From a virus: DNA of 34,354 bases. Shown piece by piece: positions 3,437 to 34,354 of the stretch. Location of the stretch: the IMG/VR virus record IMGVR_UViG_3300032242_000977, positions 1-34,354 of that record; one strand, given 5' to 3'. The notes below the pieces were generated by a model. The model worked only from the letters and a program-made list of their open reading frames with translations. It had not been told where the DNA came from and made no database searches. How positions within the stretch are numbered: position 1 is the first letter of the stretch; each line of letters opens with the position of its first letter. Made by a program: the position numbers and the translations under genes.

Positions 3437-3695
3437 TTGCTCTCTTAGGCTTTTCAATAGGGGTAGGATTTGATGCTTTCCAAACATCGTATTGATGAAA
3501 TACATATTTGACCATAGCTGCTACATCTGCTGAGCAATGCATACAACATAAATAACCAGGTGAAAACTCCTCTCTAGTAATCCTAAGCAATTCCTGCCTA
3601 GTCTCATTGGTTAGGTTTTGAATAAATCCGGCATTGACTAGGGTAGTGTATATTCCTCTATTCTCATCTAGGAACTTTGCATTATTTGCTTTCAT
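3408..3695 (-). CDS. Hypothetical Cys-rich phage protein (95 aa)
   Basis: A small soluble protein with a helical start, the segment PGYLCCMHCSADVAAMVKYV (about residues 46-65) and a basic Lys/Ala/Pro tail. The CCMHC cluster could bind metal, but too few ligands are visible to call a zinc finger. It overlaps the glycosyltransferase stop by 14 bases and the HNH start by 29, so the genes are co-transcribed. No function recognised. Confidence 0.75.
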   Translation of the reverse strand: MKANNAKFLDENRGIYTTLVNAGFIQNLTNETRQELLRITREEFSPGYLCCMHCSADVAAMVKYVFHQYDVWKASNPTPIEKPKRANAKAHKNLS

Positions 3696-4689
3696 ATAAT
3701 TCCTTTCTTTTTTTATTGATCTCTTTAAAATTGTAGTGCTTGTGGCAGTATTCCATCAAGTTTTTACCAACCATGTGTCTGAAGTAGTCTACATCTGCCA
3801 GGCTTTTGATATATCTGTACCAATCAGTTTGATTTTCTACATAAAGCAATACTTCTTCAGGGAATCCCAAATAGGGATGTACCTTAGAAACTACCACAGG
3901 ACAGCCGGCATAAGCAGCTTCTAATACTTTAAGATTGCTCTTAAATGAATTGAATCTATTTTCAACCAATGGAATAAGACAGATGTCAGCATTGTTGTAA
4001 ATCTGATAGTATTCTGTCGGCTTAGTACCTGGAAAGATTAAAGGATTTAACTTAAGCCCATTAGTAAAAGCTCCAAGCATTGCATCTGAATCAGTAAGGT
4101 TTCTTACATGACCTCCGAATACCATTTGAAGTTTATTCTTTAGGCTGCTATCACTATAAACCTTTTTGATTGGGTTTCTTAATATCTCCATGTCAGCCCT
4201 GTGGGTGATTGATCCTTGCCACATTACTCTCACCTTATCACTTGGCTGCTTATTTACCAAAAACTGCTCGAATCCTCCAGGTATTGCATTAGGTAGTATA
4301 TGAATATTATTATTGTAAACACTTGCATACTCAGCTAGTCTATCATGAGTAACTGTTACTAAATCTGCTTTAATTAAATTTTGAACTATAAGATTTGGGA
4401 TATTATTAAACTGCCAATTGTCATGTAGTATATGACCTGAGTTAAGCTCCCAATAATCATCTATATCAATTACTAACATAAATCCATATTTATCTCTCCA
4501 TTCAAAAATCTCTTTAGCTTCATTATAAAAAGCAAAACGATTTATAACAAGTACATCACATCCTTTTTCTAATTGCTCCTCAGTCAGCTTATTAGTGATA
4601 TGTACATCTCCTAACATATTCATTAAGGGAGTGTATACTCTGTGATAACAGCTACCTGAAGTTTGATTTACAATACCTATTATTCTCAT
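3682..4689 (-). CDS. Glycosyltransferase, GT-B fold (group 1 / GT4-like)
   Basis: A 335-residue glycosyltransferase that would move a sugar from a nucleotide-sugar donor. The C-terminal donor-binding half has the expected pattern: VRVMWQGS (start of the second Rossmann domain), YYQIYNNADICLIPL, then FKSNLKVLEAAYAGCPVVVS, where the E of the EAAYAGCPVV motif binds the donor. The N-terminal half contains LVIDIDDYWEL. ATG overlaps the upstream stop by 4 bases. The target could be host surface glycan (changing receptors after infection), phage virion protein or phage DNA. The neighbouring methyltransferase and lack of a DNA-base hydroxylase favour a glycan or protein target. This last point is inference. 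Confidence 0.9.
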   Translation of the reverse strand: MRIIGIVNQTSGSCYHRVYTPLMNMLGDVHITNKLTEEQLEKGCDVLVINRFAFYNEAKEIFEWRDKYGFMLVIDIDDYWELNSGHILHDNWQFNNIPNLIVQNLIKADLVTVTHDRLAEYASVYNNNIHILPNAIPGGFEQFLVNKQPSDKVRVMWQGSITHRADMEILRNPIKKVYSDSSLKNKLQMVFGGHVRNLTDSDAMLGAFTNGLKLNPLIFPGTKPTEYYQIYNNADICLIPLVENRFNSFKSNLKVLEAAYAGCPVVVSKVHPYLGFPEEVLLYVENQTDWYRYIKSLADVDYFRHMVGKNLMEYCHKHYNFKEINKKRKELYESK

Positions 4690-5183: not shown

Positions 5184-5444
5184 TTAAAGTTTTCTAATTA
5201 GACCTGATAGTAATATTTGACTAACCATTGCAATACTCATCAAAGCAAATATTTCAAATATGTTGTGGTAATCAATGGTATCAATAAAAGTAAATCCAAG
5301 CATAAACCATCCTGATAAACACACAGCACAATTGAATGGCTTAAAGTTTAACTTCCTGTGAAATCTGTAAGGCATCTGAAGTATCTCTACCCAAACAAAT
5401 GCCATTGCAACTGATCCTAATATTTCAAATATTATCATTTCCAT
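5184..5444 (-). CDS. Small integral membrane protein (86 aa)
   Basis: Three hydrophobic segments are visible, at about residues 4-22, 44-57 and 63-80. Between the first two is the motif FNCAVCLSGW (about 38-47), a Cys-x-x-Cys-x-x-x-Trp pattern found in small phage membrane proteins of unknown role. It would sit in the host inner membrane. It starts inside the end of the sigma-like gene (10-base overlap). A superinfection-exclusion role is possible but not shown. Confidence 0.75.
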   Translation of the reverse strand: MEMIIFEILGSVAMAFVWVEILQMPYRFHRKLNFKPFNCAVCLSGWFMLGFTFIDTIDYHNIFEIFALMSIAMVSQILLSGLIRKL

Positions 5445-5923
5445 AAGTTGCTTTTAATTTCTATTTTAGCTTTCTTTACAGCATTATGAATAGACTTTAC
5501 AGGTATGTTTGTATGCTCACTAACTGCTCTATAAGTTCCATGCTCTGCATATAGCTCCAGGAGTTCCTTGTTATACCAATAAAGTTTGCTTACTTCCTTT
5601 TCACACTTTTCAATTAACTCATGGTTATTATCCTCATCAACTACATCCTCAAACACATCACAATGAACTTCTTTTGGTTTTTTATGTATTTGATAGAATC
5701 CACTTCTAACAGCAAAAACAGAATTAGTGATAAGTTTTACTAAATAAAATCTTAGCTTCTTTTCTTTGTGTAGGGTAATAATCATTTTATCTTTGCTCTC
5801 GCATAATATCTGAAATACATATTGCCTTAAATCATCTCTTAAATCCGATGGTTGTATCTTTAGGATAAGTTCTTCAACTTCCTTACTTTGATACAACTCT
5901 GTGATGATTTCATTTTTAGTCAT
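5435..5923 (-). CDS. Sigma-70-like RNA polymerase sigma factor
   Basis: A 162-residue protein laid out as a minimal two-region sigma factor. Residues about 22-75 resemble region 2 (DLRDDLRQYVFQILC, then YLVKLITNSVFAV). Residues about 115-160 resemble the region 4 helix-turn-helix (LLELYAEHGTYRAVSEHTN, then IPVKSIHNAVKKAKIEI). It would redirect host RNA polymerase to phage promoters. It sits late in the early region, where an activator of late transcription would be expected, and the repeated motif before four virion genes is a candidate target. The sigma-like fold is fairly clear; its promoter set is inference. Confidence 0.72.
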   Translation of the reverse strand: MTKNEIITELYQSKEVEELILKIQPSDLRDDLRQYVFQILCESKDKMIITLHKEKKLRFYLVKLITNSVFAVRSGFYQIHKKPKEVHCDVFEDVVDEDNNHELIEKCEKEVSKLYWYNKELLELYAEHGTYRAVSEHTNIPVKSIHNAVKKAKIEIKSNLWK

Positions 5924-22336: not shown

Positions 22337-24307
22337 TTACTTTTTTATTAATACTTGACTAACCCATTGATGTCTGCAATGAGCAGAAACTCCTTTACCT
22401 TTTCCTTGATTCCAAAATCCACCTTCTCTATCCCAAACACTATATCCAACTCTTTGGCTTATTTGCTCAATTTGTGATCTTGACCATACTTTAGTCTGAC
22501 TCAACTCAACCATCTTTCTACAAAATGGTCTGCTAGTAGCTTTTAAAGAAGCTCCTAAGCCTGGTCTAACTCTATATGAGTATCTGATAAATATTTCAGG
22601 AAGTTTAGCCTTGATTTCACCAACCATTTGAGGCAAGCTCTTAGTCAGTTTTTTAATAGCTACTTTCTCACCATTCTCAACCACATAATCATATTGCACC
22701 AATCCTCTTTCATGCAAATCATTCATCAACTGAGAAGCATAGCTCTCATCAATACCTAATGCTTGAGCAACCTGAGCAGGACTTATTCTTTTATCCTTTT
22801 CTATTTGCTTTAATACTTGAGTCTCTATATCAGAAATAGTTTTCAAAGTAGAAAACATCTCCTTTTGATAGAAGTTAAGTTCATGCGCTGCTAATTCAGC
22901 ATCACTTTTAAAGTCAACCTCTCTTGTAAATACAGTATGGAATTGTTTTGTATCATCACCAACCTCACCGAACATCATTGCCACTTCTTCCTCTTTAAAT
23001 TCTTTGCTTAATTTATTAGGAGCAGCAACAGCCGGCACATCACCTGGAGGAGTAGGAGGCTGAGGAGGCATAGTCTTATCTCCCACAGGAGGATCGCTAT
23101 ACTTAGTTGTATCAATACCCATTTTTTCAAGCAACCATGATCTTGGAGCTGCTTGTAGTAAGGTTACATCCGTAAATTCAACTCCAACAGGATCAACTGA
23201 ACGGATATACATCTCATTCTTAATGCCCTTAAACTTAGCTATGTAATTAAACACCTTTTCAAGTGTTCTTTGCTTAACGCTTACATAAGTATTATTGAAT
23301 ATCTCATAAGACATTCTTAATTCATTTCTTCCACCAAGTTTACCAGGCTCTTGAATACCAAATAACATCGGAGATGTAATCTGATGTCCGGCAAATATGT
23401 TAGAAGCAATTAAGTTGTCTACCTTCTCAAAATCTTCTTTAGTTAAATCACTAGCACCTAAATCAAGGATAGTAGGAGCTTTGGAAGGATCATTATTAAA
23501 TGTCACAACCATCTTAGAACCATCTGCACCTGTAAATTTCTTCTCTAAACGCTTATAGATGTCTCTTTGCATCTCAGGAGCAGGCTCACCATTAAAGAAG
23601 TTAACCATTTTACTAGCTGAGAATCCTGTCTTAGCATTAGTAAGAGTATGTTTACTAACTTCCATGTCAGCCTCTATATAGTTTATAGAACCTATATAGT
23701 TAGGTAAAGGATAAGTCCTTAATCCTGGTCTGTATTCTTTGAATTGGAATATAGTAGCCTTATCCAACTTATTAGGATTAAAAGCAGCATACTCTTTTGG
23801 TTTTTCCTTGTTATTGCTCCAATCGTTTTTATAGAAAAATTGGCTGCCATCTTCATTTGCTCTTACTCTATTGAAATCCAAATGATATATTTCAGCTATT
23901 TCAGTACCTATTTTGTTAGGTATTAGGTTTAAATAAAATCCACCAAATATTTCAATGTCAATAGCACACTTTTTAGATATGTCATTAAGGCTTTCACCGG
24001 CACTATTAACTTTAAAAATGAATTTGTCTGCTAATGGATCATTAACATTTGTATAAAAGCCTTCACCATAGATGTAATTAACCTTACCATTGATAATTGC
24101 GTTATGTTTAGCTGACTTATTGTATAATTTCACCAAATAGTCAGGGTATAAGTTATCCTCACCGAAGTAAACAAACTGCTTACCTTTTACCTCTTTAAAT
24201 TCAGGTATTTTACTATCATCAAATTTGACAGTTATTGTATTGTCAGCCATACTTTTAGCTGTTACTTCGTTATCCACCATACTGCTTGTAATTTGTAGCT
24301 GTGTCAT
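22337..24307 (-). CDS. Portal protein with winged-helix and Mu F-like C-terminal extension (656 aa)
   Basis: The first 420 residues are a phage portal: FVYFGEDNLYPDYLVKLYNK, then the long core with FAGHQITSPMLFGIQEPGKL and a NELRMSYEIFNNTYVSVKQR helix. A Pro-rich linker (MPPQPPTPPGDVPAV) leads to a winged helix at about residues 490-550 (ISPAQVAQALGIDESYASQL, then MNDLHERGLVQYDYV). The end, with RSQIEQISQRVGYSVWDREG and CRHQW, resembles the C-terminus of Mu F-like head morphogenesis proteins. The portal forms the DNA gate of the capsid. Several in-frame starts exist (TTG 24322; ATG 24307, 24280, 24250); I use 24307, but 24250 would remove overlap with the previous gene. A DNA-binding domain in a portal is unusual. 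Confidence 0.82.
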   Translation of the reverse strand: MTQLQITSSMVDNEVTAKSMADNTITVKFDDSKIPEFKEVKGKQFVYFGEDNLYPDYLVKLYNKSAKHNAIINGKVNYIYGEGFYTNVNDPLADKFIFKVNSAGESLNDISKKCAIDIEIFGGFYLNLIPNKIGTEIAEIYHLDFNRVRANEDGSQFFYKNDWSNNKEKPKEYAAFNPNKLDKATIFQFKEYRPGLRTYPLPNYIGSINYIEADMEVSKHTLTNAKTGFSASKMVNFFNGEPAPEMQRDIYKRLEKKFTGADGSKMVVTFNNDPSKAPTILDLGASDLTKEDFEKVDNLIASNIFAGHQITSPMLFGIQEPGKLGGRNELRMSYEIFNNTYVSVKQRTLEKVFNYIAKFKGIKNEMYIRSVDPVGVEFTDVTLLQAAPRSWLLEKMGIDTTKYSDPPVGDKTMPPQPPTPPGDVPAVAAPNKLSKEFKEEEVAMMFGEVGDDTKQFHTVFTREVDFKSDAELAAHELNFYQKEMFSTLKTISDIETQVLKQIEKDKRISPAQVAQALGIDESYASQLMNDLHERGLVQYDYVVENGEKVAIKKLTKSLPQMVGEIKAKLPEIFIRYSYRVRPGLGASLKATSRPFCRKMVELSQTKVWSRSQIEQISQRVGYSVWDREGGFWNQGKGKGVSAHCRHQWVSQVLIKK

Positions 24308-24650
24308 AGTGCTTAAAAGCAAATGAAGTAGCTGTGTTTAAATCCATTTTACCTGTCTCAACCTTACTTGTAGTAAGTTTTATATCTGTATTAGTAGAAC
24401 TTGCTTGCTCATAAATATCATAGATATATTTACCTGGTGATGCAATAGCAAATAGGGCAGAGCTGAAAGTAAATTCATTGAATCTATTAGGGTATCCACT
24501 TAAATCATCAGCAGATGACTTAACAAATGATACAACCTCTTTTGTGGTCTCATGAGTAAATACAAAAAGATAAAATGGATTAGTTAACGTTGTCTTTTCA
24601 GTCAGCGTTAGCACCACATCAGCATTTAACCCTTGTATTAATTGTATCAT
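24270..24650 (-). CDS. Hypothetical virion protein (126 aa)
   Basis: Beta-rich: DVVLTLTEKTTLTNPFYLFV, FTFSSALFAIASPGKYIYDI, ending KHYDTATNYKQYGG. This fits a small Ig-like or collar/decoration protein between the tail-tube candidate and the portal. The start is preceded by the late-gene motif GTTATTTAT (24657-24665) behind a terminator, so it is probably the first gene of its transcript. Function inferred from place only. Confidence 0.65.
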   Translation of the reverse strand: MIQLIQGLNADVVLTLTEKTTLTNPFYLFVFTHETTKEVVSFVKSSADDLSGYPNRFNEFTFSSALFAIASPGKYIYDIYEQASSTNTDIKLTTSKVETGKMDLNTATSFAFKHYDTATNYKQYGG

Positions 24651-24655
24651 CTACT

Positions 24656-24670
24656 TATAAATAACAAAAA
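24656..24670 (-). promoter_or_regulatory. Late-gene upstream motif, copy 2
   Basis: Minus strand TTTTTGTTATTTATA, a 15-base match to 34238-34224. It lies 6 bases before the ATG at 24650 and right behind the terminator at 24688-24715, with CAAAATA a few bases further upstream. Position suggests a restart point for transcription or translation. Confidence 0.5.
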
Positions 24671-24687
24671 GTATATTTTGTGCCAAT

Positions 24688-24715
24688 AAAAAACCCCAAC
24701 CATTGCTGATTGGGG
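24688..24715 (-). terminator. Rho-independent terminator after the tail-tube candidate
   Basis: Minus strand: CCCCAA (24715-24710), 10-base loop, TTGGGG (24699-24694), then T6 (24693-24688). A GC-rich stem plus T-run, 24 bases past the stop of the 173-residue gene. Confidence 0.85.
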
Positions 24716-24738
24716 CTAACCTTTACAATATGCACGAA

Positions 24739-25260
24739 CTATGAACCTGGAGTAGTTAGAGCTGATACGATTGCAGAAGATACTTCCTGTGCCATGAACG
24801 GCTCAGAACCATCAAACTCAATAACGTATCCGTTACGATCACCCATCTTAGTACCTGACTCACCTTTAGCAGTCTTAGCTACTAAGCCATTTGTAGCACC
24901 TAATAAAAAGGCTTTACCATTTCTATCAACTGCAACTGCTACAAGCAAGTTTTTAGCTAATAATTGAATTTCATTTCTAGTGTTGGCTTGCATTTTATTC
25001 AAAACAATACTTAGCTTTTGAGCTGAGTAGTTAGTACCGTTTTCTTCGTTACCTGTGTAAGTATCATCAAACATTGAAGTTTGCTTTACTAATTGGTATT
25101 TATAGAAACGTTTACCTGCTGCTTTTGTTAATGCCGTTACCACACCACTTGCTTCTGTAAAAGAAGATAAGTTGCCAAGCTCCATGAAGTAGACTTCTTT
25201 CAAGCCACCCACCGAGTCTCTGCAATCTAAATTATAATCCTGTGTTAATGCACAAGCCAT
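24739..25260 (-). CDS. Putative major tail-tube protein (173 aa)
   Basis: A compact beta-rich protein: DSVGGLKEVYFMELGNLSSF (about residues 15-34), YKYQLVKQTSMFDDTYTGNE, a helix (LSIVLNKMQANTRNEIQLLA) and RNGYVIEFDGSEPFMAQEVS near the end. The strand-helix-strand layout with a long loop matches tail-tube folds. It is flanked by its own upstream (25281) and downstream (24688) terminators, consistent with a protein needed in many copies. Head decoration protein is the main alternative. Confidence 0.6.
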   Translation of the reverse strand: MACALTQDYNLDCRDSVGGLKEVYFMELGNLSSFTEASGVVTALTKAAGKRFYKYQLVKQTSMFDDTYTGNEENGTNYSAQKLSIVLNKMQANTRNEIQLLAKNLLVAVAVDRNGKAFLLGATNGLVAKTAKGESGTKMGDRNGYVIEFDGSEPFMAQEVSSAIVSALTTPGS

Positions 25261-25280
25261 GATGTTGAATTTAATATGTT

Positions 25281-25307
25281 AAAAAAAGGGAGAGTTACGG
25301 CTCTCCC
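25281..25307 (-). terminator. Rho-independent terminator after the major capsid gene
   Basis: Minus strand: GGGAGAG (25307-25301), 6-base loop, CTCTCCC (25294-25288), then T7 (25287-25281). A perfect 7-bp stem with T-run 12 bases after the capsid stop. Partial termination here would raise capsid mRNA over downstream virion genes. Confidence 0.9.
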
Positions 25308-25318
25308 ATCAGTTATGT

Positions 25319-26269
25319 TTAAGCTAAAGTGAACTGAACTACTTCATTAGGGAACGCTACGTTCACACCTAATTTCCACTCAGATACAAAACGAACTTCC
25401 ATTGCTTCTTTAGCATAGAAGATTTCCCACTTATCTTCTTCGCCTAAGATGTCACAACCCATGTATAAGTTGCTATCTCTGATTGCGAATAAACGGTTAG
25501 TACCATCTAAACCATGAACAGCAGTTACTTTATAAGCTGTACCTGGAATTGTGAACTCTCCATCTTGGTAAGCTAATTGAGAAGCACCATAGTTGAAGTA
25601 GTTTGCGTTAACAAAACCATCAACTAATGCATCAAAAGCATCCCATCCACACCAAATACGAACATCTTTTTTACCCTTCACTCTTGCAGGGATAGCGTTC
25701 TTGATATTCTTGATGATAGTTAAAGCGTTAGCAGCAGTAATACCTGTTGCAACTGTGATACCTGTTGTATTACCTGCGATAGCAACACCTGAAGCATCAA
25801 TCAACTTATTTAAACCATCAAATTTGTTTTTGTTTACATCAGCAGATGAAGTATCACCTTGCCATAAAGCAGTCTCTAATTGCTCAGCAATGATACCTGC
25901 TTTTAAGTCTGTGTATTGCTTCTCAAATGGCATAGCTTCGTAGATTGAACCTGCTGCTAATGCTAATTGAGTATATTTTGCTTCCAAAGTCTTAGGACAT
26001 AATGACTCATGTACTTTGAATTTACCAACAGTCACAGTTCTTTGTGTGAAAGCAGTAGAACCTGAGCTATTGAATCCACAAGTACCACCTGTTTGGAATA
26101 CAGCATCAGAAGTTAATACGTTAATAGTTTCTGCGCTTTTTACACCTGCCATTACGTTACCGGCAGATTGAATTACGCTTTGTGTCTTTGCATCAAACAA
26201 AGACTTAGTAACTAACAATTTCTCGTTTTGAATTGTATAGTTGGTTAGAGCTGAAACATCAAATCCCAT
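25319..26269 (-). CDS. Major capsid protein
   Basis: A 316-residue HK97-type or related capsid protein, recognised by place (protease, scaffold, capsid) and layout: an N-terminal arm and extended loop (VFQTGGTCGFNSSGSTAFTQ, about residues 57-76), a spine-helix region (FEKQYTDLKAGIIAEQLETA), a central GITAANALTIIKNIKNAIPA helix, then VRIWCGWDAFDALVDGFVNA and a beta-rich A domain ending VRFVSEWKLGVNVAFPNEVV. Followed by a strong terminator. Some details, such as which residues are cut by the protease, cannot be seen. Confidence 0.85.
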   Translation of the reverse strand: MGFDVSALTNYTIQNEKLLVTKSLFDAKTQSVIQSAGNVMAGVKSAETINVLTSDAVFQTGGTCGFNSSGSTAFTQRTVTVGKFKVHESLCPKTLEAKYTQLALAAGSIYEAMPFEKQYTDLKAGIIAEQLETALWQGDTSSADVNKNKFDGLNKLIDASGVAIAGNTTGITVATGITAANALTIIKNIKNAIPARVKGKKDVRIWCGWDAFDALVDGFVNANYFNYGASQLAYQDGEFTIPGTAYKVTAVHGLDGTNRLFAIRDSNLYMGCDILGEEDKWEIFYAKEAMEVRFVSEWKLGVNVAFPNEVVQFTLA

Positions 26270-26291
26270 GTTTATTAATTTTTAATTGTTA

Positions 26292-26870
26292 TTATTTTTT
26301 TATTTCCTTTAAAGCTGAAAGGATTGCGCTAAATCTTTCCTCTTTTGCTTCGTTTTTTTGTGCTGTGAATGCATTTTGTGCAGGAGCAGCCGGCTCAGAA
26401 ACAGGAGTAGAAGCTAATTTCTCAACCACTTCTAACAATTGTCCGATAGCTTGCTGTTGCTTACCGATTGTTTCCTCTGCTGATTTAAAACGGCTTTCAT
26501 AAGCTGCAAATTTTTCTTCATAAGAAGCAAACTTGCCATTGATTTCAGTAAACTGAGATTCAAACTTGCTCATGTCTGTATTAACATCAGCTCCTTGATC
26601 ATCAGATACTTCACCTGGAGCTTGAATTTCAACGATTTTACCATCTTTAGTTTCTAAGATAGTGCCATCTTGTAATTTGTGTTCTCCATCAGGTGCAGGG
26701 TTACCATTGATAGTAACTGCGCCACCTACTTCACACTTGTCTACGCTAATTTTAGTGCCATCTTCTAATACATAATCTGCCATACCTGCCATATCAGGAT
26801 TAGCATCTGTTGCATCAGGAGCAGCAGCTAGCAATTGTTTCATTTTTGCTATTGTCTCTTTTATGTCCAT
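26292..26870 (-). CDS. Putative scaffold protein (192 aa)
   Basis: The N-terminus (about 1-95) is acidic and beta-rich (KISVDKCEVGGAVTINGNPA). The centre (about 98-155) is a coiled coil (KFESQFTEINGKFASYEEKF, then KSAEETIGKQQQAIGQLLEV). A Pro/Ala-linked basic end follows (ERFSAILSALKEIKK). Acidic body, coiled coil and basic capsid-binding tail between protease and capsid genes is the classic scaffold layout. It guides capsid assembly and is then removed. Confidence 0.75.
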   Translation of the reverse strand: MDIKETIAKMKQLLAAAPDATDANPDMAGMADYVLEDGTKISVDKCEVGGAVTINGNPAPDGEHKLQDGTILETKDGKIVEIQAPGEVSDDQGADVNTDMSKFESQFTEINGKFASYEEKFAAYESRFKSAEETIGKQQQAIGQLLEVVEKLASTPVSEPAAPAQNAFTAQKNEAKEERFSAILSALKEIKK

Positions 26871-26885
26871 TATTAGTATTTATTA

Positions 26886-26919
26886 ATAAATAACTTATAT
26901 ATTATATTTTGCCACTTAT
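26886..26919 (-). promoter_or_regulatory. Late-gene upstream motif, copy 3
   Basis: Minus strand: GGCAAAATA (26913-26905), 10 bases, GTTATTTAT (26894-26886), then 15 bases to the scaffold ATG. The 15-base TATTTTGCCACTTAT (plus strand, 26905-26919) is identical to 27530-27544 and includes the preceding stop codon in both places. Confidence 0.5.
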
Positions 26920-27506
26920 AACTCAACCTGTTCTAATAGAGCTTTAATTTCAGCATATACTTGCTCAGCAGTTAAAGGTTTTTTCTTGTATTCAAACACA
27001 CCTTCAACGCTAAATCCTTTTACTTCACCTGCTTTAACTTTAGCCCATACTTCAGGATTATTTACTTTAACTCCTAAGAACCATGAACCATCCTGTGCAT
27101 CCTCAAATCCTCTAGGAGCAGGTCTGCCTTGTTCAGAATCAACTATATATGACTGAAACACAAAAACTCCTTCACATTTCTGATTGGAGTCATGCATTAA
27201 ATTGAAATTTTGTTGGAATCCTTTCTCAAAGAATTTCTGAGCAATGCAGTAAATAGTTTCCTTATCGAAAACTACATTGTATTCGCCTAATTGATTATCT
27301 CTACGATAAATAGGCACATTTGCAAGCATAGCAGCACCAAAAAGCTCCTGTTTTTCTGCATCAACAGCAAACTTTAACTCTTTACCAAAAGCCAAAAAGT
27401 TTTTTTCAATAGCAGGGGAATCAACAAGGGCTACATAGTCCACTTGTAAATCGCTGCTTAATTCATCATCTATAATAAGTTGATAGGTAGGTATCTTTTT
27501 ATCCAT
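26916..27506 (-). CDS. XkdF-like prohead serine protease (196 aa)
   Basis: Matches the XkdF type of phage prohead protease: VDYVALVDSPAIEKNFLAFG (about residues 23-42), YCIAQKFFEKGFQQNFNLMH (about 87-106, with the likely catalytic His), EGVFVFQSYIVDSEQG, and KVKAGEVKGFSVEGVFEYKK (about 156-175), where the Ser in GFSVEG is the expected nucleophile. It cuts the scaffold and capsid arm during maturation. It directly precedes the scaffold and capsid genes, as usual. Late-gene motif copy 4 precedes the start. Confidence 0.85.
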   Translation of the reverse strand: MDKKIPTYQLIIDDELSSDLQVDYVALVDSPAIEKNFLAFGKELKFAVDAEKQELFGAAMLANVPIYRRDNQLGEYNVVFDKETIYCIAQKFFEKGFQQNFNLMHDSNQKCEGVFVFQSYIVDSEQGRPAPRGFEDAQDGSWFLGVKVNNPEVWAKVKAGEVKGFSVEGVFEYKKKPLTAEQVYAEIKALLEQVEL

Positions 27507-27510
27507 ATTG

Positions 27511-27544
27511 ATAAATAACGATTCCTACCTATTTTGCCACTTAT
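27511..27544 (-). promoter_or_regulatory. Late-gene upstream motif, copy 4
   Basis: Minus strand: GGCAAAATA (27538-27530), 10 bases, GTTATTTAT (27519-27511), then 4 bases to the protease ATG. It shares a 15-base block with copy 3. Confidence 0.5.
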
Positions 27545-29565
27545 GCTATTCTCGCTGCTCTATTGATACGGCTGATTCTTTGTTGGTTATTAGTTACATC
27601 AGATTCAACCACATAGGCTCTTGTCGCTGATGCATTGATTTGATTTAAAGAATCTGCGCTAATTACTGCACTTGGTGATTCAATGCCTCTTGGTTTTAAA
27701 GGAGATGGTATGCTCATGCTTGGTGCTGAACCTGCACTTCCACCACTAGCACCAGGAACAGGAGTTGATACAATCTTTTCAACTGATGCTAAACCTGCTG
27801 CAATCACACCGGCTGCTGCAATTGCTCCATAAATACCTCCCTGAGCAAGTGCCTTTGTAGCACCTGTATAAGTATTGATAGTTGCCTCAGCAATGGATAG
27901 AGCTTTGCCGGCTGCTGTATTTTGACCTACTAACTGACCTAAGCCTTGTAATGCTTGTCCTACTGTTGTAAGGTTGGCAATCTTTGCTTCTTTCTCTTTT
28001 TCATCAAGTGCCATTCTACCATTAGCAGTCTCCTGGTCAAATGCTTGTAATTGAGCAGCATCAGCCTCTTGATCAACTAATATTTGTCTTTCAAGGTCTC
28101 TCTTTCTGTTATAAGCATCAATCTCCATTTGAAAGGTTAATTGATGTTTAGTTCTTTCTAGGTTTAATTCACTTTCTATAAGTTTAATTTGCTCCTGTCT
28201 ATCTTTATTTCTTTGAGCAACTTGCTTAAGTCTTATCTTTTCTAAATCAGCAGCTAACTTATCTTCAAACTCTCTTACTTTCTTAGCATACTCCTCTGAT
28301 TTCTTTTGCTCATCGGCAGCTTGCTTTTTATCAATGTCTGCAATTTTTATAGCAGTCAATTTTCTATACTCAACTTCCAGGTCAGCATATTGCTGCTTAG
28401 TAATTTTCTTTTGCTCTAAGTCTAATTTAGCAGCTCTTAAATCATCTTGTAATTTAATTTCAAGTTGAGCTTTTTCTTTTTTATAAGTATCATCAATTGT
28501 AGCTAAATGTTCTTCTTCTTTTAGCTTATCAATCTTATATTGATAGTCTCTGATATTATCAAGTCTTTCCTTTTCTGCTTTCTTTGCTTCTTCTGCCTCA
28601 GCTTTAGCCTCAGCGTTCATTTGCTTATTTAAAGTCCTGCCTTGTCTTTGAATTTGAATAGTCTTTCTAGCAGTTTCTTCTTCTTTATTGGCAATATCTA
28701 TCTGTAACTCTGCTAATTCTTGTGCATGTTTTTTAAGACCTTCTTTAGTTTGCCCCCAAATAGTTGTCTGAAGTTTTAATTTTTCTTTTGCTCTTGCAAC
28801 ATCTTCCTCACCAATTTTCTTTTCAAAATCACCAACTTCTTTAAGTGCTTTTTGTCTATCTCTAATAGATGCGTTCTCATCATTAAGTAATTCCTTGCTT
28901 TTTACGATTGCAGCATTTTGTTGCGCCCTTGCAACACTTGCCTCTCTTTCAGCTTTGTGTAATTTTTGCAATTCCTCAGTAGCTTTGCTAACCTCATCAT
29001 AAGCCTTGCCAACAGCATCACCAATGCCGGTAAATGCAGCCTTCATATCTTTAGCTGCACCTGCCCAATCTCCTGAAAAGAATTTAATTACTGCCTGCCC
29101 TGCACTCATCAATCTATCAATAATAACATCCAATCCTGCTTTTAAGCCGGCAAATACTTGCTCCATCTTTTTAGCACCGGCAACAGAGTAAGTAAATGCC
29201 TCATATAATAAACCTAATGCTGCTACAATACCTGCAATAAGCAATACAATAGGGTTAGCCATCAAAGCCTTCAAAGATGCGCCAAATGATGTCACTCCTG
29301 ATTCTGCTGCTTGTAATCCAGGCACAGTACCCATAATCTTCTCCTTCAACACACCAAATGCATCAGCACTTCCACCTTGCGCCTTTGTAAGTTGATCGGT
29401 TGCTTCCTTTACTCTTTTCTGCGCTTCAGTATATTCATCTGAACCAATCTTGGCATCATTCAAATCCTTTTTAGCTGCCTTTAGATTAGACTGTAATTGG
29501 TTTATGGATGCTGCTGCCTGACTACTATCTGCTGTCAGTTTTAAACCTACTTCTGTTGTTGCCAT
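27541..29565 (-). CDS. Tail tape-measure protein (674 aa)
   Basis: Sets tail length. N-terminal VGLKLTADSSQAAASINQLQ is the usual tape-measure opening. A membrane-like helix (about residues 104-124, PIVLLIAGIVAALGLLYEAF) is followed by a very long charged coiled coil (about 190-530, rich in KEAEEAKKAEKERL-type stretches) and a second hydrophobic stretch (ALAQGGIYGAIAAAGVIAAG). At 674 residues the tail would be siphovirus-like and roughly 100 nm long, using the rule of about 1.5 angstroms per residue. Unusually, it comes before the capsid genes in the direction of transcription. Confidence 0.85.
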   Translation of the reverse strand: MATTEVGLKLTADSSQAAASINQLQSNLKAAKKDLNDAKIGSDEYTEAQKRVKEATDQLTKAQGGSADAFGVLKEKIMGTVPGLQAAESGVTSFGASLKALMANPIVLLIAGIVAALGLLYEAFTYSVAGAKKMEQVFAGLKAGLDVIIDRLMSAGQAVIKFFSGDWAGAAKDMKAAFTGIGDAVGKAYDEVSKATEELQKLHKAEREASVARAQQNAAIVKSKELLNDENASIRDRQKALKEVGDFEKKIGEEDVARAKEKLKLQTTIWGQTKEGLKKHAQELAELQIDIANKEEETARKTIQIQRQGRTLNKQMNAEAKAEAEEAKKAEKERLDNIRDYQYKIDKLKEEEHLATIDDTYKKEKAQLEIKLQDDLRAAKLDLEQKKITKQQYADLEVEYRKLTAIKIADIDKKQAADEQKKSEEYAKKVREFEDKLAADLEKIRLKQVAQRNKDRQEQIKLIESELNLERTKHQLTFQMEIDAYNRKRDLERQILVDQEADAAQLQAFDQETANGRMALDEKEKEAKIANLTTVGQALQGLGQLVGQNTAAGKALSIAEATINTYTGATKALAQGGIYGAIAAAGVIAAGLASVEKIVSTPVPGASGGSAGSAPSMSIPSPLKPRGIESPSAVISADSLNQINASATRAYVVESDVTNNQQRISRINRAARIA

Positions 29566-29569
29566 CTAT

Positions 29570-31711
29570 CTAATATTTTGTATTTATAACTTTTAATAAT
29601 TCCACTTTACACACATCTCTAGTCGCTGCATTGTAATCCACTATTCGGTTCAGTCTAAATAATGATCCATCAACATATATCAATTTAGAAAAATCTAAAA
29701 GGTTTATGTCTTGCTCATTCAATCTAAATGTGGCAGTTAATAACCTACTATCCTGGTCTATTATCTCATACATATATGGAAGCCAATAAACATTGAATTG
29801 ATTTACGTTAAATGCTCCACTTGTGATAGTAAAAAATAATTCTTTAGGGATGCTAAAATTCAAATCATTAGCCGGAGCATCAGGATCATCAAAGTGACCG
29901 GCATAAGGATAGTTAGTATATGTGCCTAATACATTGCCATTAGACTCAATGATATTCCAACTTGCTACACCTGTCACTTTTTTAGCAATAAGTATTCTGA
30001 TATTACTATCAATTTTTTCCTCAACCTTTCCTGTCACAAAAGCACCCCCATCAGTAGCATGAGAGATATTTGAATCCGTTCTCTTGTAAATAGTGCTGTA
30101 AACCTTATCCTCATTTAAGTAACCTACCAATGGAGTAGGGCTGAATATCAACTCAACTGTATTGCTCGCATTAGCAAACTCAAACTGAGTATCAAATAGG
30201 TAACTGCCATAAGGTAAATTGTATCTCTTTTTATATAAGTCATTCCAATAGTCAGTATCCTCTTTGAATTTAAATTCATAATACCTGGATGTAAGCTCAC
30301 TCATTGGCTTAATGCTAATAGGTTTGCTTCTATCCAATTTATAAGTCCAATCAATAGCGTTTAATGGGTTTGCATCAAAGAAATCAACATAAGGAGAAAT
30401 GTTCAATACATTCTGATTAAACTTATCTTCAAAGATGTATAAGTTGAACATCTTTATCATGCTTGCAATAAAATCCTTTTGTAAAATATTGGAAGGCAGG
30501 TTGGAGTTCATATTCAATGTATCTCCATAGTTTGCCGGAGCAAGTACATTTGAAGAAGCTATTAAAGTAAGATATGTATTATTAAATGCTGTAACATTGC
30601 TATTGTAGTAAGTACCATTAGATGATGGTATAACAATATGCACCTCTACACTTAACTCATCATTTGTTGCAAAAGAAACATCTCCTGTATAAGTATATCT
30701 ATAAGGAAGTGATATGTCCTTATATCCACCATAAGAATAAGTCTTTCTGTCAATTATAGTAGTGTTTTTATATATGGTAACTATTATTGAATAGTTATGT
30801 GTCGTTCCTGTATTGAAGTGAAGATTTGCATATCCATAAATACTAAAATTTAAAGTAGCAGTTATAGGGTTTGCACCTGTATAAGTAAATACACCGGCTG
30901 CCTGAGTAAAATTGCCTAATGTCAATGTGTTAAAAGTGACATTCTCTCTATCAGTATCATTTAAGTTTATAAGCGTATAATCAGCCGTATTATTAGCATT
31001 GATTAAAAAGCTAGTAGACTTAAATAAAGTCTTTTTGTTTTGAGGAATGATAAGGCTTTTAAATCTGCTTGTATTAAATAAAGCACAGTTATAAGAATAT
31101 CCTGCCTTAGCAAATATCTTATCTATATATTCCTTAGCAAATAATGCCGGCTTAAACGTTCCATACTGCCAATCATGCTTATCATCAGAATATGTTCCGT
31201 AGTCTATCAATGGGTAGTAATATCCTTGTCCGGCACTTGCATTTTCCCAACTGCCTACAATATTTGCAATACTCCAATTGTGATCATAAGCACTAAAATC
31301 TAAATCCTCTAATTTTAATGCTCCCATTTTAGAGATAAATCCACCAAGCTCACCAAATACTGCACAATCATATTCAATAGACTCATTGTCTAAAATGATT
31401 TCCATGATTCTGATAACACCTTTAAATATTTGTATGTTACCCTGAAATATTATACAACTTGCAGACTTAGCAACATTGTAATTGAAGTTTACATTTGCTT
31501 GTGTTGAATCGTACTGACCTGATTGAATAATATCAAACACATTACCAAATACAGCGTTATTTCTTGCCGTACCTGGTAAGGTAATTGTCTTACTGAATGA
31601 TGTGTTCCTGCTTGCAAAGTCCTTTACATCATCAATGGCAAAGGTTAGCAATGCATCTAAATCAGCACTAACATCTAGTTTATAGTTTTCTATGTATATT
31701 TCAGTTATCAT
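29570..31711 (-). CDS. Tail/baseplate protein (713 aa)
   Basis: A large beta-rich protein beginning ITEIYIENYKLDVSADLDAL; next comes DFASRNTSFSKTITLPGTAR (about residues 32-51), a start I associate with tail-tip proteins of Bacteroidota phages. The middle is rich in Tyr/Asn/Thr beta strands. It lies between the tape measure and a smaller tail gene and overlaps the upstream stop (ATGA), fitting a distal-tail or tail-associated baseplate role. No enzymatic domain is visible. Confidence 0.68.
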   Translation of the reverse strand: MITEIYIENYKLDVSADLDALLTFAIDDVKDFASRNTSFSKTITLPGTARNNAVFGNVFDIIQSGQYDSTQANVNFNYNVAKSASCIIFQGNIQIFKGVIRIMEIILDNESIEYDCAVFGELGGFISKMGALKLEDLDFSAYDHNWSIANIVGSWENASAGQGYYYPLIDYGTYSDDKHDWQYGTFKPALFAKEYIDKIFAKAGYSYNCALFNTSRFKSLIIPQNKKTLFKSTSFLINANNTADYTLINLNDTDRENVTFNTLTLGNFTQAAGVFTYTGANPITATLNFSIYGYANLHFNTGTTHNYSIIVTIYKNTTIIDRKTYSYGGYKDISLPYRYTYTGDVSFATNDELSVEVHIVIPSSNGTYYNSNVTAFNNTYLTLIASSNVLAPANYGDTLNMNSNLPSNILQKDFIASMIKMFNLYIFEDKFNQNVLNISPYVDFFDANPLNAIDWTYKLDRSKPISIKPMSELTSRYYEFKFKEDTDYWNDLYKKRYNLPYGSYLFDTQFEFANASNTVELIFSPTPLVGYLNEDKVYSTIYKRTDSNISHATDGGAFVTGKVEEKIDSNIRILIAKKVTGVASWNIIESNGNVLGTYTNYPYAGHFDDPDAPANDLNFSIPKELFFTITSGAFNVNQFNVYWLPYMYEIIDQDSRLLTATFRLNEQDINLLDFSKLIYVDGSLFRLNRIVDYNAATRDVCKVELLKVINTKY

Positions 31712-32874
31712 CTATATTGTACATTTTGATCATCACCAAATTGGATATTAAGAGTCAAATTGAATAATCTATCAACTGCTCTTGTTTTATATTCGTATTT
31801 AGTATCAGTAATCACAACAGGAATATAGTAGCCGGATTGCTCTAAGTATATTTGTGGGCTTCTTAATAGCTCACTTAACCAGGTATAAGTATCTTCTGTG
31901 ATGTAATCAGTATTCAAAATCTTTGACTCAACTGAATCACCATAGTAGACAATCTTATTATCATTTAATACCGTTCCATTATAATAAGTCATTGAACCAT
32001 CAGCGTTAATGATATATCCTAATTGAGTGAAATCCTTTTTAGTGATGTCAATAGATTTCTTAGATGATTTAGGAAAATCAAAGCTGTCATATCCACCCAA
32101 TTGATTTAGGAAATGAATAGTGAAAGGATTAAATCTAGGCTCACAATAAATATTAAACTTATAAGTCTTAGTTCCATTGGTTACAGTATAATAAGTTGTA
32201 TTTGCCGGTATTGCTCCTGATGCTATTGAATTGATAGCAATAGGAGATACATTTAGCTGTTGCAGATAATTTGCACCACTTGGTGTGATGGTAATATTGT
32301 TAGAAGCAAGCTGAGTTCCATTGGAGTCATAGCTTTTTACATTTAAAGTGATTGCATTTGTGGTAGTAGGGAAGTAAGGAATAAATACTTGCCCACCATT
32401 TAACTGAACATTAGTTGCACCTGGTCTATTTGATGCAAAAGTATCTGTGTAATTAGGTAGGATAGTGTATCCACCAACTAATCTTCCATTGTAATGATTG
32501 AAATAGTTTCTAGCACTATCAGTAGTTAAATTAGTATAAAGTGTGCCGGCATACTCCTCACCAAATTTACATTGAACTGAAGCAAAGTAAGCAGTTAGCT
32601 CCTGCGCTTTTACTACATTGTTTGTAGGATTGAATAAAGCATTTACATAGTTACGAACTATCATTCCTATGTTGAATATTCCTCTTTTGTTTACAGGGTT
32701 GGGGAAGGCTTTCAACCTTACTACCATTGTGCCTGCTATATACACATCACACACATACTTATAATTAGGGTATGTGGTAGCATCATTTGCTTTTGTAGCC
32801 TCATATACCGTATATACCAGGTCTCCATGAGCTGATGAGTAGTCCTGTGGTGTGTTATTAATTACTATTGCCAT
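31708..32874 (-). CDS. Tail/baseplate protein (388 aa)
   Basis: A beta-rich virion protein: DLVYTVYEATKANDATTYPN near the start, and RFNPFTIHFLNQLGGYDSFD (about residues 256-275), a segment I associate with tail genes of this phage group. It overlaps its neighbours at both ends and is co-transcribed with the 713-residue protein. Receptor-binding or distal tail roles are both possible. Confidence 0.62.
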   Translation of the reverse strand: MAIVINNTPQDYSSAHGDLVYTVYEATKANDATTYPNYKYVCDVYIAGTMVVRLKAFPNPVNKRGIFNIGMIVRNYVNALFNPTNNVVKAQELTAYFASVQCKFGEEYAGTLYTNLTTDSARNYFNHYNGRLVGGYTILPNYTDTFASNRPGATNVQLNGGQVFIPYFPTTTNAITLNVKSYDSNGTQLASNNITITPSGANYLQQLNVSPIAINSIASGAIPANTTYYTVTNGTKTYKFNIYCEPRFNPFTIHFLNQLGGYDSFDFPKSSKKSIDITKKDFTQLGYIINADGSMTYYNGTVLNDNKIVYYGDSVESKILNTDYITEDTYTWLSELLRSPQIYLEQSGYYIPVVITDTKYEYKTRAVDRLFNLTLNIQFGDDQNVQYR

Positions 32875-33529
32875 TTGTCAAACTATTTATTACATCTATT
32901 TTTAATGCTGTTTCAAATTCTCCTGCTATATATTGTTCTAAGTCCTTTACTGAATCAGTCCAAAAGTTTGTCTTTTTTAAACCTTTTCTTTTGATCATCA
33001 TAGTTGTAAATATGGCTGCTGATGTGGATGCATCAGTTATTTTATTTCTTCTTACTTCTCTTTGTGTAATAGGTCTCTTTCTCTCTGCTGCTCCTGTTGC
33101 TTTAGCTGCTTCAGTTGTCAGCCATTGCTTGATAGCTGCCACCATCTTTGAGTTCTTAGGTGCTGTGCCTTTTTTACCTGGAGCTTTAAACCCATAAGGT
33201 GAGTTAACGCTTGAGTCCTTCCAACCTTTTACCCCTTGATCTACAAACTTGTAGTAATCATTTACGTTAATATTAACTGTCATTACCTTACCCATGATAA
33301 TAACATCAGTAGGTTTGATGCTATCAACCAATGCGCCACCTGCAATCCTATCAGCTTTCTCAAGATTATCTCCTGCCTTTTGCATAAAGTGAACTGCTGA
33401 ATTATAGAGAGCAGTAGCAATGGCATCACCTGTAAATGGCTTCAATCTACTTAGGTCATCATTGTTTAAATCAAGGAATCCACTTTCAATGAGCTGCTGC
33501 TGTCTTTTTGCCTGACTAATGGATTGCAT
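32858..33529 (-). CDS. Putative tail component, gp10-like (223 aa)
   Basis: Helical start with FLDLNNDDLSRLKPFTGDAI, then a small alpha/beta core, VDSIKPTDVIIMGKVMTVNI and NVNDYYKFVDQGVKGWKDSS (about residues 68-107). The YYKFVDQGVKG segment is like the E/D-x-G strand of HK97 gp10-type neck or tail-completion proteins. The C-terminal half is basic (ERKRPITQREVRRNK). The call is tentative. Confidence 0.5.
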   Translation of the reverse strand: MQSISQAKRQQQLIESGFLDLNNDDLSRLKPFTGDAIATALYNSAVHFMQKAGDNLEKADRIAGGALVDSIKPTDVIIMGKVMTVNINVNDYYKFVDQGVKGWKDSSVNSPYGFKAPGKKGTAPKNSKMVAAIKQWLTTEAAKATGAAERKRPITQREVRRNKITDASTSAAIFTTMMIKRKGLKKTNFWTDSVKDLEQYIAGEFETALKIDVINSLTNGNSN

Positions 33530-34220
33530 TTTTCTGTCTTTTAGCTAGTTCTTCCTCATATTGAGATAATGCCTTTAAATAAGCCAAGTCATTAAAGGAT
33601 TGTATTACAGGTAGGTCAAACGCTTTCTCTAATGTGATGCCTTCAAATTCAGCCACTTTCTTAGCTGAGTATATCCATCCATATCTATTGTTGAAATCAT
33701 CATTGTCCGGCTTCTCTTGTTCACCTTCTTCACTTACACCAAATAAACCTTGATATTTATTATTAAACTCTTTGAATTGCTCCAGGAACTTTCCTACGCT
33801 GTGTAGGATAGGGATAAATGGGAGCTTAAGTATTTGCTCACCTCTAGTAATATGATCAAGATTTCTTTTAGTGCATATTGATGCAGCTATTAGGTGCAGG
33901 TTTTCGATATGCCCACCTTTTAAAAAGTGTTGCACCTCGATATATTGCCCTAATGTAATCTTCTTAAAATCGTATTGAAATTTAAACCCTTTGTAGTTAT
34001 TGTAAGGTCTGCCTTTTACGTTCTTAAATCTTTCCCTTACTTGTTTCTCTAACTTTTGATATGTCTTTAAGCTGATAAGATTTATTTGCTCCTCAGTTTT
34101 GCCGGTTAAAAAGGTGATAGTGTAAAGCAGCTTATCAATCTCAGACATATCTGAGTTACCAATCTCATGAATGTATTGGTATTTTTCAACTGATATATTG
34201 CGCCAACTAGGTATCCTCAT
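33516..34220 (-). CDS. Putative tail assembly protein (234 aa)
   Basis: First gene of the virion operon. Largely helical: VEKYQYIHEIGNSDMSEIDK and LLYTITFLTGKTEEQINLIS (about residues 9-50), later WIYSAKKVAEFEGITLEKAF and LPVIQSFNDLAYLKALSQYE. This resembles helical tail-assembly chaperones, but no frameshift product is evident and it is far from the tape measure. ATG 34220 is preferred over an in-frame TTG at 34235. Late-gene motif copy 1 lies 4 bases upstream. Confidence 0.55.
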   Translation of the reverse strand: MRIPSWRNISVEKYQYIHEIGNSDMSEIDKLLYTITFLTGKTEEQINLISLKTYQKLEKQVRERFKNVKGRPYNNYKGFKFQYDFKKITLGQYIEVQHFLKGGHIENLHLIAASICTKRNLDHITRGEQILKLPFIPILHSVGKFLEQFKEFNNKYQGLFGVSEEGEQEKPDNDDFNNRYGWIYSAKKVAEFEGITLEKAFDLPVIQSFNDLAYLKALSQYEEELAKRQKNAIH

Positions 34221-34223
34221 ACC

Positions 34224-34238
34224 TATAAATAACAAAAA
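34224..34238 (-). promoter_or_regulatory. Late-gene upstream motif, copy 1
   Basis: Minus strand TTTTTGTTATTTATA, identical to copy 2 at 24670-24656. GTTATTTAT ends 4 bases before the ATG at 34220. Part of it lies in the terminal repeat, so the same bases also begin the window. Confidence 0.5.
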
Positions 34239-34354
34239 TTGGCTTTTGTTTCTAGTATTATCGCTCAGTAGTTAGCCGGATATAGCTCAAAAAACGGTTT
34301 TTTTGAGCTATAAATTGGCAATATGTTTCTAAAAGTGCATTTTTTGATGTGCAT
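34232..34354. repeat. Terminal direct repeat, right copy
   Basis: Exact copy of bases 1-123. It lies immediately upstream of the minus-strand gene starting at 34220, so that gene's 5' region continues into position 1 and onward when the circle is closed. Confidence 0.95.

Follow-up and report, generated by a model that had tools for sequence, protein, structure and literature searches.

Here we describe a repeated two-box element that precedes four virion genes in IMG/VR virus record IMGVR_UViG_3300032242_000977 (34,354 nt; the whole stretch is referred to below as the window), and a small sigma-like protein encoded at 5435-5923 of the same record. Our analysis makes it probable that this temperate phage of the Bacteroidota type uses a sigma factor of its own to redirect the host RNA polymerase to late promoters that are not of the host type and are mostly leaderless. 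In the proposed mechanism, the repeated motif GTTATTTAT would be the -10-like half of a bipartite late promoter from which the virion operons start. Late in the lytic cycle, the protein at 5435-5923, which resembles the extracytoplasmic function (ECF) sigma factors, would join the host core RNA polymerase and direct it to four sites that the host primary sigma factor, a reader of TTTG and TAnnTTTG, would not recognise. Transcription would then yield leaderless or near-leaderless mRNAs for the genes starting at 34220, 27506 and 24650, and a short leader for the gene starting at 26870.

The original prediction had placed GTTATTTAT 4, 6, 15 and 4 nt before the starts at 34220, 24650, 26870 and 27506. 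These coordinates and gaps are all right, and both of the 15-base identities reported with them (copies 1 and 2; copies 3 and 4) were found again, as was the position of copy 2 directly behind a terminator, at 24717-24692. The motif is the downstream half of a larger element, in which the four letters G(R/A)(C/A)A are followed, after exactly 15 nt in all four copies, by GTTATTTAT. An upstream GGCAAAATA had been correctly assigned to copies 3 and 4, but an upstream box is not limited to those two: the four copies carry GAAACAAAA, GGCACAAAA, GGCAAAATA and GGCAAAATA, all at the same distance. Written as promoter hexamers, the element becomes a -35/-10 pair of the form TTGGCA-like, N17, TATTTA. 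The downstream hexamer is separated from the ATG by 5 nt at promoter 1 (gene 33516-34220), 7 nt at promoter 2 (gene 24270-24650), 16 nt at promoter 3 (gene 26292-26870) and 5 nt at promoter 4 (gene 26916-27506), where GTGGCA abuts the stop codon of gene 27541-29565.

Five exact copies of GTTATTTAT are present against 0.95 expected, a number reached in none of 100 shuffles, and four of them lie within 25 nt upstream of a same-strand gene (chance about 5e-7). The remaining copy, already seen inside coding sequence in the original prediction, is at 3548 and has no upstream box. One-mismatch copies of the 9-mer occur at chance level (28 versus 28.8 expected). The enrichment of the 9-mer is not decisive by itself; it is the constant upstream box at 15 nt, together with conservation, that makes the element real. 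A 36-column position-specific scoring matrix (PSSM), trained on 36 sites of relatives with the window left out, found exactly four sites of at least 9 bits in the window (33.3, 21.7, 11.8 and 10.9; next best 3.3), all of them the four sites described here, and reversed controls contained no site of at least 9 bits. In none of 200 first-order Markov randomisations did the best score exceed 17.8, but 48 of them reached 9 at least once, so that the two weaker sites are significant by position, shared sequence and conservation rather than by score alone. Furthermore, three unrelated upstream regions within one genome agree at 14 of 15 box positions, both in the window and in the relative G003, compared with 7-8 of 15 for control genes and means of 7-8 for shuffled sequences. 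This within-genome test is weak for several distant clades, whose start codons are mis-set or whose boxes have diverged, and these were inspected directly instead. The element was found at operon-head genes only, internal virion genes such as the neighbouring capsid, portal and tail genes being without it.

Relatives were gathered with the capsid gene, which gave 35 viral contigs from IMG/VR. The motif search of the window and these phages had been proposed with the original prediction, for which a lack of conservation in relatives would have been damaging; instead, the element was found before these same genes in about 25 close relatives. Orthologs within the close clade read TGACACA...TGATATTTAT with the same spacing, and the exact 15-nt distance from the GRCA box to the GWTATTTAT box is kept at nearly all sites of the close relatives. 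In G001-G005 and G010 the matrix matches fall at orthologs of the same four genes, with two weak exceptions (9.3 and 14.7 bits) located elsewhere in G003 and G004. For gene 24650, all 23 orthologs (the window counted among them) possess the element, and in each of them the ATG follows the hexamer at 6-7 nt; for gene 26870 it is found in 18 of 20, at 13-25 nt from the ATG, the other two having truncated upstream sequence; and for gene 27506 in 11 of 15, at 5-6 nt. Of 2.9 million IMG/VR contigs, 18 contain TTGRCACAAA-N10-TGWTATTTAT as an exact match; each of these belongs to this phage group and had already been found through the capsid gene. Chance, or the simple inheritance of AT-rich intergenic sequence, could be invoked on the strength of the single-mismatch counts and of the randomised genomes that sometimes attain the score of the two weaker sites. 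We regard this explanation as negligible, given that four upstream regions of one genome share the element, that it stands before the same genes in relatives both near and remote, and that among 2.9 million contigs these phages alone contain the exact pattern.

Relatives at about 60% capsid identity, among them named Mucilaginibacter and Chitinophaga prophages, have clade-specific elements at the same genes, related to the one described here but distinct from it. One large clade has TTTTGCAAACAAT...TTTATATTTATAGTTGTG, and another has GCAACAAA...GCTATATA or GATAAA...CTATTTA. The Mucilaginibacter pedocola TBZ30 prophage contains TATACTTA only three times in 21 kb, each time 13 nt before the ATG of the homologs of 34220, 27506 and 24650. 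In the Chitinophaga polysaccharea 1209 prophage a stretch of about 37 nt containing ACAGAACGTCGATTTCTGATATATACAGTTGATGATA is repeated before two genes, the copies at 3714 and 11615 being identical with the start codon region included, and in another relative, L027, each of four late genes has GGCA 32-33 nt ahead of its ATG. Several lineages thus have a two-box element of their own at these operon heads, at a distance compatible with transcription beginning on the start codon or next to it.

The sequence pattern points to a promoter and not to a ribosome-binding element, because the spacing between the boxes is fixed while the distance from hexamer to ATG varies from 5 to 25 nt. The positions of the elements are also those of promoters: each is located at the head of an operon, one of them immediately after a terminator and another abutting the preceding stop codon. 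The original prediction had allowed for either a promoter with near-leaderless mRNA, which our results support, or a translation-initiation element, which they disfavour. In the latter case an AT-rich box would recruit ribosomes in a phylum without Shine-Dalgarno sites, and indeed three of the four copies lie 4-6 nt before the ATG and Bacteroidota are reported to tune initiation through upstream A-rich sequence (PMC6847099). The reported signal, however, consists of A at -3 and -6 rather than of this sequence, a ribosome would have no need of the conserved upstream box at its fixed spacing, the boxes stay intact at orthologs of 26870 where the ATG is up to 25 nt away, and neighbouring capsid, portal and tail genes do without the element. 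We therefore consider a translation signal very improbable. Scarcely more probable is a binding site for a repressor or activator that overlaps an ordinary promoter: the boxes are about two helical turns apart, as protein-binding half-sites could be, but they are neither palindromic nor direct repeats of each other, their orientation is always the same, and they lie at promoter distance from the start codon with no host-type -7 box nearby.

The Bacteroidota primary promoter, read by sigma ABfr, has TTTG at -33 and TAnnTTTG at -7, with a spacer described as variable (PMC7366714). The element described here shares with it the phylum and a two-box architecture of the sigma-70 family, but neither box matches and the spacing is fixed rather than variable. 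No TAnnTTTG was found just before the four genes on their own strand, and a primary promoter was rejected for the four sites on this ground; a phage-specific late expression signal unlike TAnnTTTG, as first proposed, is the best-supported reading. The regulatory region (10.0-10.7 kb) does contain TAnnTTTG sites of the host type, and they recur at 13.2 kb; the arrangement suggests that host-type promoters may serve early and phage-type promoters late. A scan with a generic sigma-70 consensus was uninformative (67 matches versus 80.6 expected). A sigma-54 promoter, with GG and GC at -24 and -12, 10 nt apart, was also rejected, since GG is present in some copies but the GC box is absent from the aligned sites.

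In genes with leaderless transcripts, a -10-like box precedes the start codon by about 10-12 bp (PMC3160421), and at 34220, 27506 and 24650 the first T of TATTTA lies 11-13 nt before the ATG, which gives these genes the box position of that class. The same distance is kept across orthologs of 24650 and most of those of 27506. From the closeness of the -10-like box to the ATG, transcription of these three genes is predicted to begin on the start codon or no more than about 3 nt away from it, whereas the predicted leader of gene 26870 is about 10 nt long. Transcription of lambda cI from pRM is an example of a leaderless mRNA, and here as there the -10-like box would stand where the RNA start and the start codon coincide. 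Unlike in such genes, the arrangement here is common to several virion operons, and it occurs in a phylum in which leaderless mRNA is the minority: it amounts to 5.5% in Flavobacterium psychrophilum (PMC9723704), and 87% of transcripts in Flavobacterium johnsoniae have leaders longer than 10 nt (PMC6847099). Leaderless virion mRNA would be unusual, because most flavobacterial mRNAs have leaders.

The candidate reader of these promoters is the 162-residue protein encoded at 5435-5923. Its AlphaFold model (pLDDT 76, pTM 0.41; a second run with 30 sequences did not raise pTM) arranges the helices as sigma2, linker and sigma4. The best Protein Data Bank (PDB) matches found with Foldseek are ECF sigma factors (AlgU, SigL, sigmaE) and other sigma factors; residues 1-162 align structurally to sigmaE, sigma28, AlgU and WhiG, and region 4 alone fits region 4 of sigmaE with Z 9.8 and 1.7 A over 65 residues. 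Viral structure matches include annotated phage sigma-70 proteins. The model thus has the two domains of an ECF factor, sigma2 and sigma4 without sigma1.1 and sigma3, at low confidence in their placement. With known ECF (group IV) sigma factors it shares this predicted layout and the best structural matches; unlike them, it shows very low sequence similarity, below the Pfam cut-off, and no anti-sigma gene was recognised next to it. Sequence searches against PHROGs, phage records and the PDB gave nothing significant, and only the fold comparison was informative. In favour of a sigma factor, the profile of the family also recovers a textbook ECF sigma factor of the host in the Chitinophaga genome (E 0.002).

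Seven close relatives that are near-complete or long were tested, and every one carries the gene, as do 17 of 20 further records with this capsid; the three without it are contigs of 20-23 kb. The family is encoded in at least 341 viral stretches. Among 395 Bacteroidota genomes one has it, the known prophage carrier, and in two family-level samples of about 300 genomes it was found in four and one. Its predicted fold and its co-occurrence with the element add weight to the early suspicion of this sigma-like protein, which likely reads the four late promoters. In the relative G003, both contig ends (33124-33609 and 2-268) hold the gene, at one end as an additional copy or fragment that differs slightly, from either a duplication or a strain mixture.

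A rival possibility is that an alternative (ECF) sigma factor of the host recognises the boxes, or that the host polymerase does so with the help of an activator from the phage, the sigma-like protein having some other role. Host genomes do encode many ECF sigma factors (PMC9723704), and the family profile finds a canonical host ECF sigma factor in a Chitinophaga genome (E 0.002). Such a promoter is nonetheless unlikely, though less so than the other alternatives considered above: the element and the sigma-like gene occur together in every full-length relative examined, the letters of the element change between phage clades as expected for a reader borne by the phage, and the family is absent from ordinary Bacteroidota genomes.

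Several points weigh against a phage sigma factor acting at leaderless late promoters. Its pairing with the promoters is drawn from co-occurrence, a strong association that is confounded by shared ancestry. The relative placement of the two domains is unreliable, because pTM is about 0.4; the Pfam match to sigma region 4 falls below the gathering score (15.1 versus 25.7 bits), and the Pfam search gave no match to region 2, so that the protein does not qualify as an ECF factor by sequence. Four of the 15 orthologs of 27506 lack a match to the promoter pattern, one of them (L004) having a copy whose spacer is one base shorter. The -10 register is uncertain by about 2 nt, which makes the predicted leader 0-3 nt and not exactly 0. 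Finally, some orthologs of 34220 (L012, L015, L017 and L023) have no ATG after the -10 box and their only in-frame ATG within the extended -10 (ATGATATTTATTAATAG), and would therefore lose it from any transcript that begins beyond the box; in these cases translation may be provided by read-through from the terminase gene.

The features on which the analysis relies are collected in the table.

Table. Predicted genes, promoters and terminators of the window
Feature	Coordinates	Strand	Basis
Predicted late promoter 1: -35-like TAGAAA (34254-34249), N17, -10-like TATTTA (34231-34226)	34226..34254	-	PSSM 21.7 bits; same at orthologs
Predicted late promoter 2: -35-like TTGGCA (24686-24681), N17, -10-like TATTTA (24663-24658)	24658..24686	-	PSSM 33.3 bits
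Predicted late promoter 3: GTGGCA (26915-26910), N17, TATTTA (26892-26887)	26887..26915	-	PSSM 11.8 bits
Predicted late promoter 4: GTGGCA (27540-27535), N17, TATTTA (27517-27512)	27512..27540	-	PSSM 10.9 bits
Predicted phage sigma factor, 162 aa, ECF-like layout (sigma2 + sigma4)	5435..5923	-	AlphaFold model; Foldseek/VIA top matches; co-occurrence
First gene of virion block, downstream of promoter 1	33516..34220	-	Orthologs in relatives
Head maturation protease	26916..27506	-	PF14550 Peptidase_S78_2
Protein of unknown function in the scaffold position, flanked by the protease and capsid-like genes	26292..26870	-	
Probable major capsid protein, without own promoter	25319..26269	-	Position; weak PHROG virion-structural match
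Intrinsic terminator after capsid-like gene 25319-26269	25288..25307	-	
Intrinsic terminator directly upstream of promoter 2; T tail enters -35 box	24692..24717	-	
Small protein, opens operon leading into portal gene 22337-24331	24270..24650	-	

A 123-bp terminal direct repeat (1-123 = 34232-34354) closes the record to a circle of about 34.2 kb, so that the window is a complete phage genome, circular or circularly permuted. It encodes an integrase, a repressor-like helix-turn-helix protein, a Rad52-like protein, a CHAP endopeptidase, the large terminase, the portal, the head protease and a tape measure protein. Capsid relatives are contained in prophages of Mucilaginibacter and Chitinophagaceae, and therefore the host is most likely a Bacteroidota bacterium. 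Among 50,697 phage records the capsid protein had no match and the portal protein only distant ones, in Nonlabens and Bacteroides phages. The portal carries a C-terminal winged helix-turn-helix (residues 499-546, PF13412, above cut-off), which is unusual in portals. A glycosyltransferase gene lies at 3682-4689, and in the M. pedocola prophage a glycosyltransferase-like open reading frame is likewise near the sigma-like gene. Between the terminase gene and gene 34220 (1-525 joined to 34236-34354) there is a non-coding gap of about 400 nt, which holds a host-type TATTTTTG box at 344 (minus strand) and the palindrome AGCTCAAAAAAACCGTTTTTTGAGCT; in the relatives compared, unlike in the window, the terminase stop codon abuts the late promoter. 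The gap is possibly a small RNA, though one with no Rfam match; the Rfam and tRNA scans were empty.

T4 gp55 and SPO1 gp28 are small phage proteins that give the host polymerase new promoter specificity for virion genes, and the protein predicted here would re-specify it in the same manner. T4 late promoters consist of a lone TATAAATA box and need the sliding clamp, whereas two boxes with fixed spacing are found here; a T4-type late promoter was rejected on account of the conserved upstream box and of a downstream box that reads TATTTAT, not TATAAATA. The predicted system also differs from T4 and SPO1 in that the phage is temperate, the protein is ECF-like with two domains, and most of the starts would be leaderless. 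Phage sigma factors and late promoters as such are already known; what is new is the form predicted here for temperate phages of the Bacteroidota, in which an ECF-like factor goes together with transcripts that mostly lack a leader. Our search of the open-access literature found no late promoter or cognate sigma factor described for these phages.

We lean, with less assurance than for the mechanism itself, to the broader view that many temperate phages of the Bacteroidota, forming one large family, each encode a sigma factor together with a clade-private promoter code that has diverged with it, and thereby make mostly leaderless virion mRNAs that the host primary polymerase cannot make, so that the lytic late switch would change both the promoter code and the mode of translation start. 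If true, this would provide a protein-promoter pair for controlling gene expression independently of host sigma factors in Bacteroidota, a sequence signature with which to annotate virion operons in hundreds of uncultured phages, and a natural series of co-diverging sigma-promoter pairs. It would also offer a test of how efficiently Bacteroidota ribosomes, working without Shine-Dalgarno sites, start on leaderless mRNA.

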